Program-made: the position numbers and the translations under genes
NCBI GenBank assembly: GCA_030682575.1
Contig: JAUXNX010000011.1
Span: forward strand, 1-64,000
DNA length: 64,000 nucleotides
Source: Gammaproteobacteria bacterium
GTDB lineage: Bacteria; Pseudomonadota; Gammaproteobacteria; Pseudomonadales; Pseudohongiellaceae
Direction of reading: 5' to 3'
The notes under the pieces: model-generated
Told to the model about the DNA's origin: nothing
Database searches by the model: none
Seen by the model: only the letters and a program-made list of their open reading frames with translations
Shown: positions 157-10,138 of the stretch, piece after piece
Layout of the letters: each line of letters starts with the position of its first letter
Position numbering within the stretch: position 1 is the first letter of the stretch

Positions 157-865
157 ATCGTAGCTCATCCGGGGTGAGAGAGGGAGCTACAACGGCCCTG
201 ATCGGCCTAATGGAATGGCAGCTATCGTAGCTCATCCGGGGTGAGAGAGGGAGCTACAACGTGATTACCTCCGGCTCCTCGTCCAGCCTTATCGTAGCTC
301 ATCCGGGGTGAGAGAGGGAGCTACAACTCAGTGCAGTGCCTTGCGCCCCCCCCTGGAATCGTAGCTCATCCGGGGTGAGAGAGGGAGCTACAACACTAAT
401 AAACGACTCAGCATCAGCCTTGCCATCGTAGCTCATCCGGGGTGAGAGAGGGAGCTACAACGTTCGATGGCTTGCGGTCGAGGATGGATCTATCGTAGCT
501 CATCCGGGGTGAGAGAGGGAGCTACAACGCCTGTGCATCGCGGGTGAATCACTATCTCATCGTAGCTCATCCGGGGTGAGAGAGGGAGCTACAACATTAA
601 ACCCGCCCTCAACTGCTCGGTATTGATCGTAGCTCATCCGGGGTGAGAGAGGGAGCTACAACCCTGATTGATGGGGTTATTCACGGCTGCGCATCGTAGC
701 TCATCCGGGGTGAGAGAGGGAGCTACAACCGAGCGCTGTCGATATGGCGGTGAATCTTGATCGTAGCTCATCCGGGGTGAGAGAGGGAGCTACAACCCCT
801 TGTCGCCAGGATGATTGACGTACCCGATCGTAGCTCATCCGGGGTGAGAGAGAGGGAGCTACAAC
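157..865 (-). CRISPR. CRISPR array, type II-C-like repeats, 11 repeats and 10 spacers
   Basis: Repeats start at 157, 224, 291, 358, 425, 492, 559, 626, 693, 760 and 827. The first ten are identical 37-mers. The last (827-865) carries an extra AG and is 39 bp. All ten spacers are exactly 30 bp and differ from one another. The repeat ends contain the inverted pair GTAGCTC/GAGCTAC. On the minus strand the repeat begins GTTGTAGCTCCC and ends GAGCTACGAT, very like the 36-bp Neisseria type II-C repeat, which shares the GTTGTAGCTCCC start and a CTAC-AT end. Spacers of 30 bp also fit type II-C. The strand is inferred from this similarity. No cas9, cas1, cas2 or tracrRNA is recognisable in the window; a cas locus could lie to the left beyond the IS remnant. 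Confidence 0.95.
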
Positions 866-1122: not shown

Positions 1123-1353
1123 ATGATTTCCATAAAAGATTATGACCGCATCGTGTTGACCAAGGATGTGCCAGAAGCAAAGCTGGCGCTGGGTGACGTG
1201 GGCGTTGTCATTCATGTCCACGGTAATGACAAGGCGTATGAAATTGAATTCGTTGCGCTCGACGGAGAAACGATGGCGGTCGTCACGCTTGACCATGATC
1301 ATGTGCGGCACGTGGAATCGCACGAGATCAGCCATTCACGTCGAATGGTATGA
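1123..1353 (+). CDS. DUF4926 domain-containing small protein
   Basis: A 76-residue protein, MISIKDYDRIVLTKDVPE..., with the pattern typical of DUF4926: an N-terminal 'D-IVLTKD-PE' segment, 'LGDVGVVIHVH', then 'YEIEFVALDGETMAVVTL' and 'HVR'. GGAG at 1112-1115 lies eight bases before the ATG and supports the start. The family has no established biochemical role. From memory, members are often next to a small DUF6883 partner, but none is visible here, so the gene appears solitary. It lies between the CRISPR array and a cluster of hairpins, a setting that suggests accessory DNA. The last residues (SHEISHSRRMV) look unlike the family and may be a drifted tail. Confidence 0.7.
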   Translation: MISIKDYDRIVLTKDVPEAKLALGDVGVVIHVHGNDKAYEIEFVALDGETMAVVTLDHDHVRHVESHEISHSRRMV

Positions 1354-4005: not shown

Positions 4006-4763
4006 ACCTTGACCTTGTAGCCAGTGCGAAACATCCACGTGATGATGCCCAGACAGATCAGCATGAACACTGCAATCATGGTCAGACTCAGTCCGACATT
4101 CACGTCAGCCACGCCATAGAAACTCCAGCGAAAACCACTCACCAGATACACCACCGGATTGAACAGCGTGATCGTCTGCCACACTGGCGGCAGCATGTTG
4201 ATGGAGTAGAAGCTGCCGCCGAGAAACGTCAGCGGCGCCACGATCATCATCGGAAACACCTGCAATTTCTCGAAGCTGTCAGCCCAGATGCCGATCATGA
4301 AACCAAACAGGCTGAACGTGATGGAGGTCAGCACCAGAAACGCGATCATCCAGAACGGGTGCATGATCGTGAAATCCACGAAGAAGCGCGCCGTGATCAG
4401 AATGATGATGCCGATGATGATGGACTTGCTGGCCGCTGCGCCCACGTAGCCGAGCACGATCTCGATTGCCGAAATCGGCGCCGAGAGAATCTCGTATATG
4501 GTGCCGGAAAACTTCGGCATGTAGATGCCGAACGACGCGTTGGACGTGCTCTCGGTGAGTACGGTAAGCATGATGAGTCCTGGCACGATGAACGCGGCAT
4601 AGCCCACGCCATCGATTGCCACCATGCGCGAACCGATCGCGGAGCCGAACACGATGAAGTACAGCGAAGTGGACAGTACGGGTGACGCAATGCTCTGCAT
4701 CCAGGTGCGCCACGTACGGGCCATTTCAAACAGGTAGATCGCTCTGATTGCGTAGGTATTCAT
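4002..4763 (-). CDS. ABC-2 type transporter permease (YadH-like)
   Basis: A 253-residue integral membrane protein with about six hydrophobic segments. It has the ABC-2 pattern '[47 protein letters not shown]' in the middle and '[36 protein letters not shown]' near the C-terminus. These residues closely follow the YadH family. It should form the membrane channel of an exporter with the ATPase encoded just upstream; the two genes overlap by four bases (ATGA type) and must be one operon. Substrate is unknown. Confidence 0.85.
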
Positions 4764-5689
4764 GCTTTTTCTCCTACCAGATTGACGAAGATATCTTCCA
4801 GTGAACTCTGCGTGGTGTGCAGATCGCGGAACTCGATGCCGAGTTCATGCAACTTGCGCAGCAGGCTGGCGATCTGGCCATGCTCCTTGTCCTTGTCGTA
4901 GGTGTACACCAGTTGCTCGCCATTCTCGGACAGCGCCAGACCATAGGAGGACAGTTCTGGAGGCAGCGCACTGGCCGGTTGCTGAAGTTGCAGCGTCAGT
5001 TGTTTCTTGCCCAGTTTCTGCATCAGCACATCCTTGTCTTCCACCAACATGATTTCACCTTTGTTGATGACACCGATGCGATCAGCCATCTCTTCGGCTT
5101 CATCAATGTAGTGCGTGGTCAGAATGATGGTGGTGCCGCGCTCGCGCAGACGACGGATCATTTGCCACATGTCGCGGCGCAGTTCCACGTCCACGCCGGC
5201 GGTAGGTTCGTCGAGAAAGAGCACTTGCGGCTCATGGGCCAACGCCTTGGCAATCAGCACGCGGCGCTTCATGCCGCCCGACAGCGTCATGATCTTGCTG
5301 CTGCGTTTATCCCACAGCGACAGATCTCGCAGCACCTGTTCGATAACCGTGGCATCCGGCGCCTTGCCGAAAATACCCCGGCTGAATGCAACCGTTGCCC
5401 AGACGCTTTCGAACATGGCAACCGACAACTCCTGCGGCACCAGGCCGATGCGCTTGCGAGCCTCGCGATAGTCGCGCACGATGTCGAGACCATCCACGAG
5501 GGCTTCACCGCTTCCGGGATTTACAATGCCGCACAGCGTGCTGATCAGCGTGGTCTTGCCAGCGCCGTTAGGCCCCAGCAGGGCGAAGATTTCGCCACGC
5601 TTGATTTCCAGATTGATGTTCTTGAGGGCATGCAGCCCGGAGGGGTAGATCTTGCTGAGATTCCTGACAGAGATAATGCTGTTTTCCAT
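4760..5689 (-). CDS. ABC transporter ATP-binding protein (YadG-like)
   Basis: A 309-residue ATPase. Walker A is GPNGAGKTT at residues 39-47. The ABC signature LSGGMKRR lies near residue 142. Walker B is [12 protein letters not shown], and the switch His is in '[16 protein letters not shown]'. The C-terminal 90 residues form the extra domain found in ABC-2 exporter ATPases. It would energise the YadH-like permease encoded immediately downstream, with which it overlaps. On the minus strand, TATAAT (plus positions 5733-5738) upstream of the start is a plausible -10 element; no strong -35 box is seen. Confidence 0.88.
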
Positions 5690-5789
5690 GGAGCTTCCCT
5701 ACCTTGATTGACGGTACTGATAACTGCGCTGGATTATAGTCGAATATCAGTGACAACAATCGACAGCGCAGACACCGTCATTGACAACC

Positions 5790-7250
5790 TCATTCCTGGT
5801 CGTGACTGCGTTTTTCGTCGGCAAGTCGCTCTATCCAATATTCAGCTCCCTTGATGCCCAGTTCTTCCGGATGGAACACCGGATCAATCCCTTGCGCCTT
5901 CTGTGCCTCGTAGTCGCGCAGACACGCGAACGCGGGTTTGCGCAGCAACAGGATGGCAGCAATATTCAACCAAGCCATCAATCCCACGCCGATATCGCCG
6001 AGCCCCCAAGCCAGCTCCGCCGTTCTGAGCGTGCCATATACCACTGCGCCGATAATCCCGAACTTCAGCACGGTGTTCATCCAGGGCCGCGCAATTGTGC
6101 GATTGATGTAGCTGATATTGGTTTCTGCAATGTAGTAGTAGGCAAGGATGGTCGTGAAAGCGAAGAAGAATAGAGCCACTGCGACGAAGATATTGCCAAA
6201 TCCAGGCATCAGGTTTTCCATCGCGGTCTGGACGTAGCCAGGGCCTGCACCGACACCCATGACTCCCGTATACATCACATCGCCGGTTGGACCTTCCACA
6301 TTGTACAGACCAGTAATCAGCAGCATGAAACCGGTGGCGGAACAGATGAACAACGTATCCACATAAACCGAGAACGCCTGCACCAACCCCTGCTTGGCAG
6401 GATGACTTACCGAGGCGGCTGAGGACGCATGCGGAGCCGTACCCTGCCCCGCTTCATTGGAGTACACACCGCGACGTACGCCCCACATGATCGCCAGCCC
6501 GAGAATTGCGCCAAATGCGGAATCAAATCCGAAGGCGCTTCTGAAGATCAGCGCGATCATCGCGGGCACCTGGGTGATGTTGAGCAGGATGATGAGGATT
6601 GCGATGCCTACATAGGCTACTGCCATGAAAGGCACTACGGCTGAGGCAAAGGCGGCGATTCGCCGCAACCCGCCAAAAATGATGAAAGCCAGCAGAAGAG
6701 CGAGTCCTGTTGCGGTAATCCGTGTGTCGATGCTGAACGCCGTGCTGACGCTACTGGAAATGGCATTGGCTTGAACCCCAGGCAACAGCAGACCGCAGGC
6801 CAGAATGGTAGTAAACGCAAACAGCCAGGCAAACCATTTGATACCCAGTCCCTTTTCGATATAAAACGCTGGTCCGCCTCTGTACTCCCCGTCGATTTTC
6901 TCTTTGTATACCTGCCCCAGTGTGGATTCGACAAAAGCTGAACTGGCACCAAGAAATGCTACTACCCACATCCAGAACAGGGCACCGGGGCCACCGAAAG
7001 TAATTGCCGTAGCCACTCCGGCGATGTTGCCTGTACCTACCCGGCCCGCCAGCGTCATGCTCAGCGCCTGAAAGGGCGATATGCCGGTATTACTCACCTT
7101 GCTCTGGAAAATCAGACGGATCATTTCCCGGAAGTGACGCAGCTGCAAAAAGCGAGTTCGCACCGAAAAATACAGCCCCGCACCCAAACACAGAAACACA
7201 AGGGCAGGACTCCAGACCACAGCGTTGATCGCACTCACAATCTCGTTCAT
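5790..7250 (-). CDS. Amino acid:sodium/proton symporter, AGCS family
   Basis: A 486-residue polytopic membrane protein. The family signature lies near residues 65-95 (LAGRVGTGNIAGVATAITFGG, GALFWMW), and a second conserved stretch reads 'GVRRGVYSNEAGQGTAPHASSAA'. AGCS proteins import alanine or glycine with Na+ or H+. Length matches the family (450-500). The frame is open further upstream through TTG and ATG codons. The ATG at 7250 (MNEIVSAINAVVWSP) is preferred because the family starts there and GGGA lies eight bases upstream. It appears to be a single-gene unit. Confidence 0.9.
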   Translation of the reverse strand: MNEIVSAINAVVWSPALVFLCLGAGLYFSVRTRFLQLRHFREMIRLIFQSKVSNTGISPFQALSMTLAGRVGTGNIAGVATAITFGGPGALFWMWVVAFLGASSAFVESTLGQVYKEKIDGEYRGGPAFYIEKGLGIKWFAWLFAFTTILACGLLLPGVQANAISSSVSTAFSIDTRITATGLALLLAFIIFGGLRRIAAFASAVVPFMAVAYVGIAILIILLNITQVPAMIALIFRSAFGFDSAFGAILGLAIMWGVRRGVYSNEAGQGTAPHASSAASVSHPAKQGLVQAFSVYVDTLFICSATGFMLLITGLYNVEGPTGDVMYTGVMGVGAGPGYVQTAMENLMPGFGNIFVAVALFFFAFTTILAYYYIAETNISYINRTIARPWMNTVLKFGIIGAVVYGTLRTAELAWGLGDIGVGLMAWLNIAAILLLRKPAFACLRDYEAQKAQGIDPVFHPEELGIKGAEYWIERLADEKRSHDQE

Positions 7251-7374
7251 TGATGACATCCCGGGCAAAGCACCGAGAGTACCACAGGACTTGAGTGCGA
7301 GAATCTACCTTGGCCTGTGGAGCCGCATTTTCTCTCTCAACTTCAACGCGCTGAAACAGGGCGAGAATATTTGC

Positions 7375-8295
7375 TCAATCAGCCCCTTCAAGGGTAAACA
7401 CCAAATGCTGCGCGTCTGTCAGCAGGAAACGTACATTCCTGTAAGCCACTTCGCCGTCAATCCGCAATTCCGGAATAGTAAGTCGGCCTGTGCTGCTGTC
7501 GAACGTGGCCATGCCGGGGACCGTCTGATCCAGATAAAACAGTGACGCACCATCCAGCTTGACCACAATGTTGGGCGTTTCGCTGATCAGGGCGAACTCA
7601 CCACGGATCATTCCCAACTCACCGGCGTTGACCATGGCATTCAGTTTGGCAGTGGATACGTCAAACACTGCCGGATCGCCCTCAGTGCTGCCCATCCTGG
7701 TCATACTCAGATGCACCAGATGGCTGCTTAACAACTGTCCTGTGGTGTAATTGATAAGGGGAAATGTATCCAGTCCGTTGATCACAGTCACCGGTGGCAG
7801 GGCACCGATCGCATCCACTGTGTGCATTCCAGCACCCATCACGCGACCGAAGACCGTGAAACCACCGTTGCTGGAGTCCAGCTCTGTATTGTTTCCCAAA
7901 TTGATAAACCACTGACTTGTGGCACTATGGGGATCACCCGACACCTTGGCCATGGCGATGGTGCCGCGCAGATTGGAGATGGAAAACTCATTCTGAATCG
8001 TCGGCCCAATGGCTATATCGTAAAAAGTCTGTTGTGCCTCGTTGAAAGTCAGCCAGCCCCCCTGAATGACAAAATCGGGCACCAGGCGATGCACTACCGT
8101 GCCATTGTAGGCACCACTGTTCACGTAGCTCAGAAAGTTGGCCACAGTGCCTGGGGCTGCTGTGTCAAACAATTCAATCTGGAATTCGCCCATCGAAGTA
8201 GCTACTCGCACAACCGTTCCGGCGGACACGGACAGGGGAAGCAACAACAAGGCACAAAACAGGAGGCGAGTGGCTGAAATAACACGGTAAGGCAT
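7375..8295 (-). CDS. Exported cyclophilin-type peptidyl-prolyl cis-trans isomerase with a C-terminal extension
   Basis: 306 residues from the ATG at 8295, which has AGGA nine bases upstream. A signal peptide (MPYRVISATRLLFCALLLLPLSVSAG) leads into a cyclophilin domain of about 165 residues. Recognisable parts are 'ATSMGEFQIELFDTAAPGTVANFL', the active-site region 'VVHRLVPDFVIQGG', 'GTIAMAK', 'SATSQWFINLG' and 'FTVFGRVMGAGMHTVDAI'. It should accelerate prolyl isomerisation of proteins in the periplasm. About 110 further residues follow, with a predicted beta-rich character and no recognised family. The upstream GTG at 8328 is an alternative start but would spoil the signal peptide. Confidence 0.88.
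   Translation of the reverse strand: MPYRVISATRLLFCALLLLPLSVSAGTVVRVATSMGEFQIELFDTAAPGTVANFLSYVNSGAYNGTVVHRLVPDFVIQGGWLTFNEAQQTFYDIAIGPTIQNEFSISNLRGTIAMAKVSGDPHSATSQWFINLGNNTELDSSNGGFTVFGRVMGAGMHTVDAIGALPPVTVINGLDTFPLINYTTGQLLSSHLVHLSMTRMGSTEGDPAVFDVSTAKLNAMVNAGELGMIRGEFALISETPNIVVKLDGASLFYLDQTVPGMATFDSSTGRLTIPELRIDGEVAYRNVRFLLTDAQHLVFTLEGAD

Positions 8296-8470: not shown

Positions 8471-10138
<1,668 letters not shown>

Follow-up and report, generated by a model that had tools for sequence, protein, structure and literature searches.

A CRISPR array with no cas genes around it raises the question of which effector, if any, could use it, and this question is posed by the first lines of the DNA stretch studied here (positions 1 to 64,000 of contig C33, hereafter the window). 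The genome to which the window belongs amounts to 3.73 Mb in 33 contigs, with some short stretches read as N. On the sequence-only reading, the array resembled those of type II-C and either adjoined a cas9 locus situated immediately beyond the window or was an orphan separated from it by an insertion. The findings presented below make it very probable that the window array is the cas-distal, older half of a single array belonging to a complete type II-C system. The cas genes are missing to the left of the array because base 1 of the window is also base 1 of the contig.

The window array comprises ten identical 37-bp repeats (starting at positions 157, 224, … 760, with a period of 67), ten spacers of 30 bp each, and an eleventh repeat copy of 39 bp at 827–865, which carries a 2-bp insertion; the repeat positions and lengths first read off the letters were verified. 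Chance cannot account for ten exact copies of a 37-mer with constant spacing. In the crRNA sense, the array lies on the minus strand. Its ten regular repeats and the nine spacers between them occupy 157–796 (crRNA-sense 5′ end GTTGTAGCTCCC), followed by the tenth spacer, presumably the oldest, at 797–826 and the variant repeat, presumably the oldest, “extra” one, which forms the crRNA-upstream end of the array. The Rfam family RF01344 (CRISPR-DR34) matches all eleven repeats on the minus strand, in each case under its gathering score of 35 bits (30.2 bits for the ten regular repeats, 27.9 for the variant).

On the other side of the array, a 15-nt remnant of a cut spacer (142–156) separates the first repeat (start 157) from an insertion sequence (IS) ending at position 141. 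The flank past the array (866–1122) matches, among the fetched relatives, only genome G013, and there with its last bases; it includes a 13-base G run at 910–922. Next comes a gene for a DUF4926 protein (1123–1353, plus strand; Pfam DUF4926, 70.1 bits), representing the right chromosomal flank of the CRISPR site. A long G run shortly past the array end is also present in L026, a related locus described below (8243–8251), whose contig ends inside the run.

The identical 37-mer occurs at ten places on C33 and at 18 places on contig C5 of the same genome, in one orientation throughout. No further match was found in the readable genome, either to the whole repeat with up to three mismatches or to a half-repeat with one mismatch; the latter search added solely the variant copy. 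On C5 (coordinates of its stretch L011), cas9, cas1, and cas2 follow one another on the same strand and are succeeded by the array. The cas9 gene (4453–7884) encodes 1,143 amino acids with no internal stop and matches TIGR01865 with 758.6 bits (cut-off 100). The cas1 frame extends to 8779, its likely start, judged by eye, being a GTG at 7871 that overlaps with the end of cas9 (type II Cas1, NCBIfam, 273.4 bits), and cas2 is found at 8783–9115 (NCBIfam Cas2, 77.2 bits). The C5 array begins at 9178, 62 bp past cas2, and comprises 18 full repeats before the contig ends in mid-array, 17 nt into a further repeat (C5 position 86,399). The calls of Cas9, Cas1, and Cas2 agree with those of PADLOC. Apart from these three genes, there is no same-strand open reading frame of at least 80 amino acids between the gene of a WYL regulator preceding the locus and the C5 array. 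A terminator before the array was also considered and rejected: two candidates were present in the region versus 1.0 (sd 1.0) in shuffled sequences, and the strong one was about 560 bp off.

On the minus strand ahead of cas9 (L011, approximately 4432–4340), an anti-repeat is followed by a GC-rich hairpin and a T-rich tail. The pairing of the first 60 nt of this putative tracrRNA with the crRNA-sense repeat was predicted at −59.5 kcal/mol, as compared with a mean of −21.6 kcal/mol (sd 3.7, best −39.7) for 500 mononucleotide-shuffled repeats; the variant repeat pairs almost equally well (−57.9 kcal/mol). The stretch, taken as 104 bases, is 95% identical in L026. The locus contains a predicted tracrRNA gene with a strong anti-repeat, as is characteristic of type II-C.

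The composition of the operon fits type II-C as well: it includes cas1 and cas2, with neither csn2 (II-A) nor cas4 (II-B). The best solved structures for the C5 Cas9 are chains 6kc8, 8ja0, and 6jdq (1,082–1,092 residues, 749 bits), which we take to be NmeCas9 of Neisseria meningitidis. The RuvC and HNH motifs, the catalytic positions of which are known in Cas9, are kept in the visible part of the best solved-Cas9 alignment. Judging by its sequence, the C5 locus is a canonical type II-C system, in line with the type guessed initially from the repeat. The use of the repeat by another Cas type was ruled out, since the single Cas1 of the genome is of type II. The search for cas9, cas1, cas2, and an anti-repeat to the left of the array, proposed from the letters of the window, thus led to contig C5 of the same genome, as did the search for a second array with the same repeat, which is represented there by 18 full copies. 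With the cognate cas genes on C5, the orphan option was discarded; the alternative offered beside it, a cas9 locus immediately beyond the window edge, stood, with the addition that an insertion lies between the two. The puzzle flagged at the outset is settled: there is neither an orphan array nor a missing effector, just a contig edge, and the array with its system is most likely an ordinary representative of type II-C.

In the type II-C system of N. meningitidis, a 36-bp repeat starting with GTTGTAGCTCCC alternates with 30-bp spacers. This system shares with the present one the start of the repeat, the spacer length, the gene order cas9–cas1–cas2, and a tracrRNA with a strong anti-repeat. The differences include the repeat length (37 bp here), the size of Cas9 (1,143 amino acids here versus 1,082–1,092 in the solved chains), the interruption of the array by an IS, and the WYL regulator preceding the locus. 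Among 38 genomes (the own one and 37 relatives), Cas9 of this kind was detected in one, the own. When the genome collection was scanned with a pattern, 17 loci with relatives came up, the closest being L026 (JAUSMV010000081.1, labelled as a Parvibaculum MAG), with an 86% identical Cas9, an identical repeat, and the same flank of sodB and the WYL gene. It differs from the present locus in its 12 exact repeats and 12 spacers, none of which is common with the 28 found here; by eye, its array continues to a degenerate repeat, and no IS was seen in the 8.3-kb contig. Since its flank is 93–95% identical to that of G013, a member of the genus of the window, L026 is probably mis-binned. A metagenomic system, EH CRISPR-Cas9, is described in PMC10281378 as type II-C with the order cas9–cas1–cas2, a tracrRNA upstream of cas9, and an array at a contig end, the latter being put down to the assembly of repeats; the repeat with which its own is compared in that paper is the one of Sulfitobacter. 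A separate, 21-bit match to the Cas9 family, under the cut-off, was noticed in a 637-aa frame of G000 (C28:257201–257401), possibly representing another HNH protein.

Why, then, does the array appear in two pieces? Elements of the IS3 type have an OrfA with an HTH_Tnp_1 domain, an OrfB integrase, inverted ends, and 3-bp target duplications. Positions 1–141 of the window (plus strand) belong to an IS3-like element present in multiple copies, of which they form the right end: the last 37 codons of the transposase (2–112), a stop, and the terminal inverted repeat. Thus, what had been read as an IS remnant at the left edge is indeed IS sequence, although not a remnant but the end of an element residing at several contig edges. 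Contigs C9 and C17 terminate in the same 141 bases, with an identity of 99–100%; the 17-bp inverted repeat was found at six contig edges, those of C2, C25, and C30 being on the OrfA side. The transposase domains score below their cut-offs (rve_2, E = 0.03; HTH_Tnp_1, 23.2 bits versus 24.1), and the parts of the element seen were its ends at contig edges. Because a mere 15 nt separate it from the first repeat, the IS sits inside a spacer, and its multiple copies explain the start of C33 at this point. The contig edges at the IS branch overlap by 140–141 bp, which suggests the operation of a k-mer assembler.

Duplications of 3 bp were found in two of the three possible pairs of IS edges (C25–C17, CTC; C2–C9, AAC). 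The remaining pair, C30 and C33, was rejected as a simple insertion due to its differing flanking triplets (GAC versus CGC); this implies at least one more IS copy or a rearrangement. The end of C5 has no edge k-mer in common with any other readable contig end, so the break on this side is not explained directly by the IS. The last three bases of C5 (GGG) agree with the beginning of the IS, but a match this short arises too easily at random and was given no weight. The insertion of IS into CRISPR arrays is known in general: PMC10359306 deals with cas genes hit by IS and refers to previous reports on the insertion of IS into CRISPR loci and on prophage integration into arrays. Among the listed papers on IS-split arrays, no type II-C case was seen in the titles and the first lines of the abstracts; such a case may still exist in print.

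No contig spans the junction between C5 and C33, and their adjacency was approached by comparison with 11 relatives searched for sodB, the left gene (C5), and groEL, the right gene (C33). In six of them (G001, G003, G004, G006, G016, and G023), both genes reside on one contig at a distance of 3–19 kb and have the expected convergent orientation; the remaining five have them on separate contigs. According to BLASTN, DNA from the left of the C5 locus and from the right of the C33 array shares one fetched stretch in ten of 11 relatives compared in this way (L050–L057, L059, and L060). The exception is G013, where the two flanks are on two contigs, each ending in an array of one I-E-type repeat. 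In G002, a relic of the WYL gene and the DNA found to the right of the C33 array are together on one 4.4-kb contig. This synteny puts the end of C5 next to the start of C33, and from it we are highly confident that the two contigs are neighbours on the chromosome. The gap between them would hold the remaining part of the array and the IS; as the assembly lists no contig under ~2.6 kb, a short piece with the array middle would be missing from it.

It is conceivable that one system has two distinct arrays, a cas-linked one on C5 and a distant one on C33, and the unassembled junction would permit this, as would the IS at the C33 edge, given that recombination between IS can rearrange chromosomes, together with the unpaired IS edges of C30 and C33 lacking a common 3-bp duplication. 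Against such an arrangement speak the ten of 11 relatives with sodB and the DNA right of C33 on one stretch, the convergence of sodB and groEL in the six relatives having both on one contig, the contig of G002 uniting the WYL relic with this DNA, and the corresponding flanks of G013, both terminating in arrays with the same I-E repeat; we therefore regard two arrays as very improbable. More room, though still on the doubtful side, is left for the IS at the contig edge being a strain-level variant, with a part of the population retaining the intact array. Such a variant branch with short, unlisted legs would leave C5 without a common edge, as observed, and contigs under ~2.6 kb are indeed absent from the listing, but C33 displays the IS-bearing version alone at the junction. 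A single array split by the IS is the reading retained in what follows.

If this single array operates like its published counterparts, the minus strand would yield the crRNAs, with a promoter for each of them within its own repeat; a TACGAT at the repeat end was recognized by eye as a weak match to the −10 element. The tracrRNA, whose transcription diverges from that of cas9, would then pair with the crRNAs, and these would direct Cas9 to the invading DNA to be cut. Cas1 and Cas2 would insert new spacers next to cas2, on C5. By analogy, the system most likely works in this standard type II-C way. With acquisition at the cas2-proximal end, the oldest spacers would be those of the window, and with promoters borne by the repeats, the IS need not silence the window half. 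PMC12080349 reports that in type II-C arrays every crRNA is transcribed from its own repeat and that 60% of the “extra” repeats are variant; with its 2-bp insertion, the outermost repeat of the window would fit the oldest, “extra” repeat of these arrays. Acquisition of spacers at the 3′ end is reported in PMC12638026, which also points to an inconsistent orientation of II-C arrays and raises the idea of subgroups that differ in the end at which they acquire spacers; hence, the age order of the window spacers is not certain.

One could also argue that the window half is dead, cut off by the IS from both transcription and spacer acquisition, and merely decaying. The alteration of the outer repeat and the location of the IS within a spacer would agree with this, and the window half would be out of reach for spacers acquired next to cas2. 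Still, the ten inner repeats are identical to the C5 copies, that is, they display no sign of decay, and the transcription of individual crRNAs from individual repeats described in PMC12080349 could spare this half from silencing by the IS. A dead half appears unlikely, and the ten window spacers are probably still usable despite their separation by the IS.

The targets of these spacers were sought in phage records, viral contigs, and genomes of relatives, and no convincing protospacer was found there. Against 50,697 phage records, the best E-values were 2 for the window array (15 records with one 21-base match) and 1 for the C5 array (56 records, short matches). The first 22 nt of six of the 28 spacers (three of the ten in the window and three of the 18 on C5) had no exact match in viral contigs, and neither had the exact repeat. 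In 57 genomes (the own and 56 relatives), the window array gave weak matches (E up to 1, the best 0.0169) in 26 relatives, which were taken as chance; the real matches in this search were the own arrays and the anti-repeat.

The site itself is mildly interesting, since it harbors different CRISPR types in related genomes. The WYL regulator preceding the II-C locus (L011 2989–3957) exceeds the cut-offs for the HTH_11, WYL, and WCX domains and is also recognized by the WYL models of PADLOC. Its homolog in G013 (C42 10158–11117; 83% identical, compared with 84% for that of L026) precedes an operon at the same site comprising cas3, Cse1, Cse2, CT1975 (Cas7), PF08798 (Cas6), Cas5, Cas1, and an array, which is read, from its gene content, as type I-E. 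The DUF4926 gene is also found about 0.4 kb from the end of the I-E array in G013 (C29, stretch L061). Over 748 bp and 1,234 bp, the flanks of L026 (II-C) and G013 (I-E) are 95.5% and 93.0% identical, respectively, so one system has probably replaced the other recently. In both the genome of the window and G013, contigs end within an array, and where arrays without cas genes are met at contig ends, the remaining contigs of the genome deserve to be examined. A second, partial groEL is present in G013 (C29:43555–44892), 98% identical over residues 95–539 and 3.5 kb from the first, possibly as an effect of assembly.

BrxR and CapW regulators share the HTH–WYL–WCX architecture. The presence of a WYL-domain regulator beside defence genes is a feature common to them and the present locus, which differs in that the regulator, a putative one here, stands beside type II-C and type I-E systems at one site. 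As WYL regulators adjoining defence systems are already known (BrxR and CapW; PMC9122601, PMC9122588), the WYL gene beside CRISPR is a new instance of a known association; the unusual part is the exchange at one site. On a more far-reaching reading, which we consider less likely than not, the region from sodB and the WYL gene to DUF4926 is a docking site where whole CRISPR-Cas systems of different types (II-C and I-E) swap, each possibly controlled by the resident WYL protein, and where the older half of the IS-split II-C array might escape silencing owing to promoters in each repeat. The alternation of II-C and I-E behind one WYL gene would make it testable if one regulator can serve unrelated CRISPR types.

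An intact WYL gene was found in two of the 14 genomes of the genus, exactly those possessing Cas1 (the own and G013). Speaking against a strict link between WYL and Cas are a 34% identical WYL protein in G032, a genome without Cas1, and the absence of a WYL match at E 1e-30 from G019, G027, and G030, i.e., from three of the six Cas1 genomes among the 38. No Cas1 was found in G002 (86% complete), whose WYL relic (L136, G002 C378 3675–3995; 108 residues with a stop) adjoins DNA like that to the right of the window array, possibly marking a lost CRISPR site. In the order-level relative G035, a partial WYL gene at a contig start (C316 4–438; 44% identical) stands directly before a type I-F operon.
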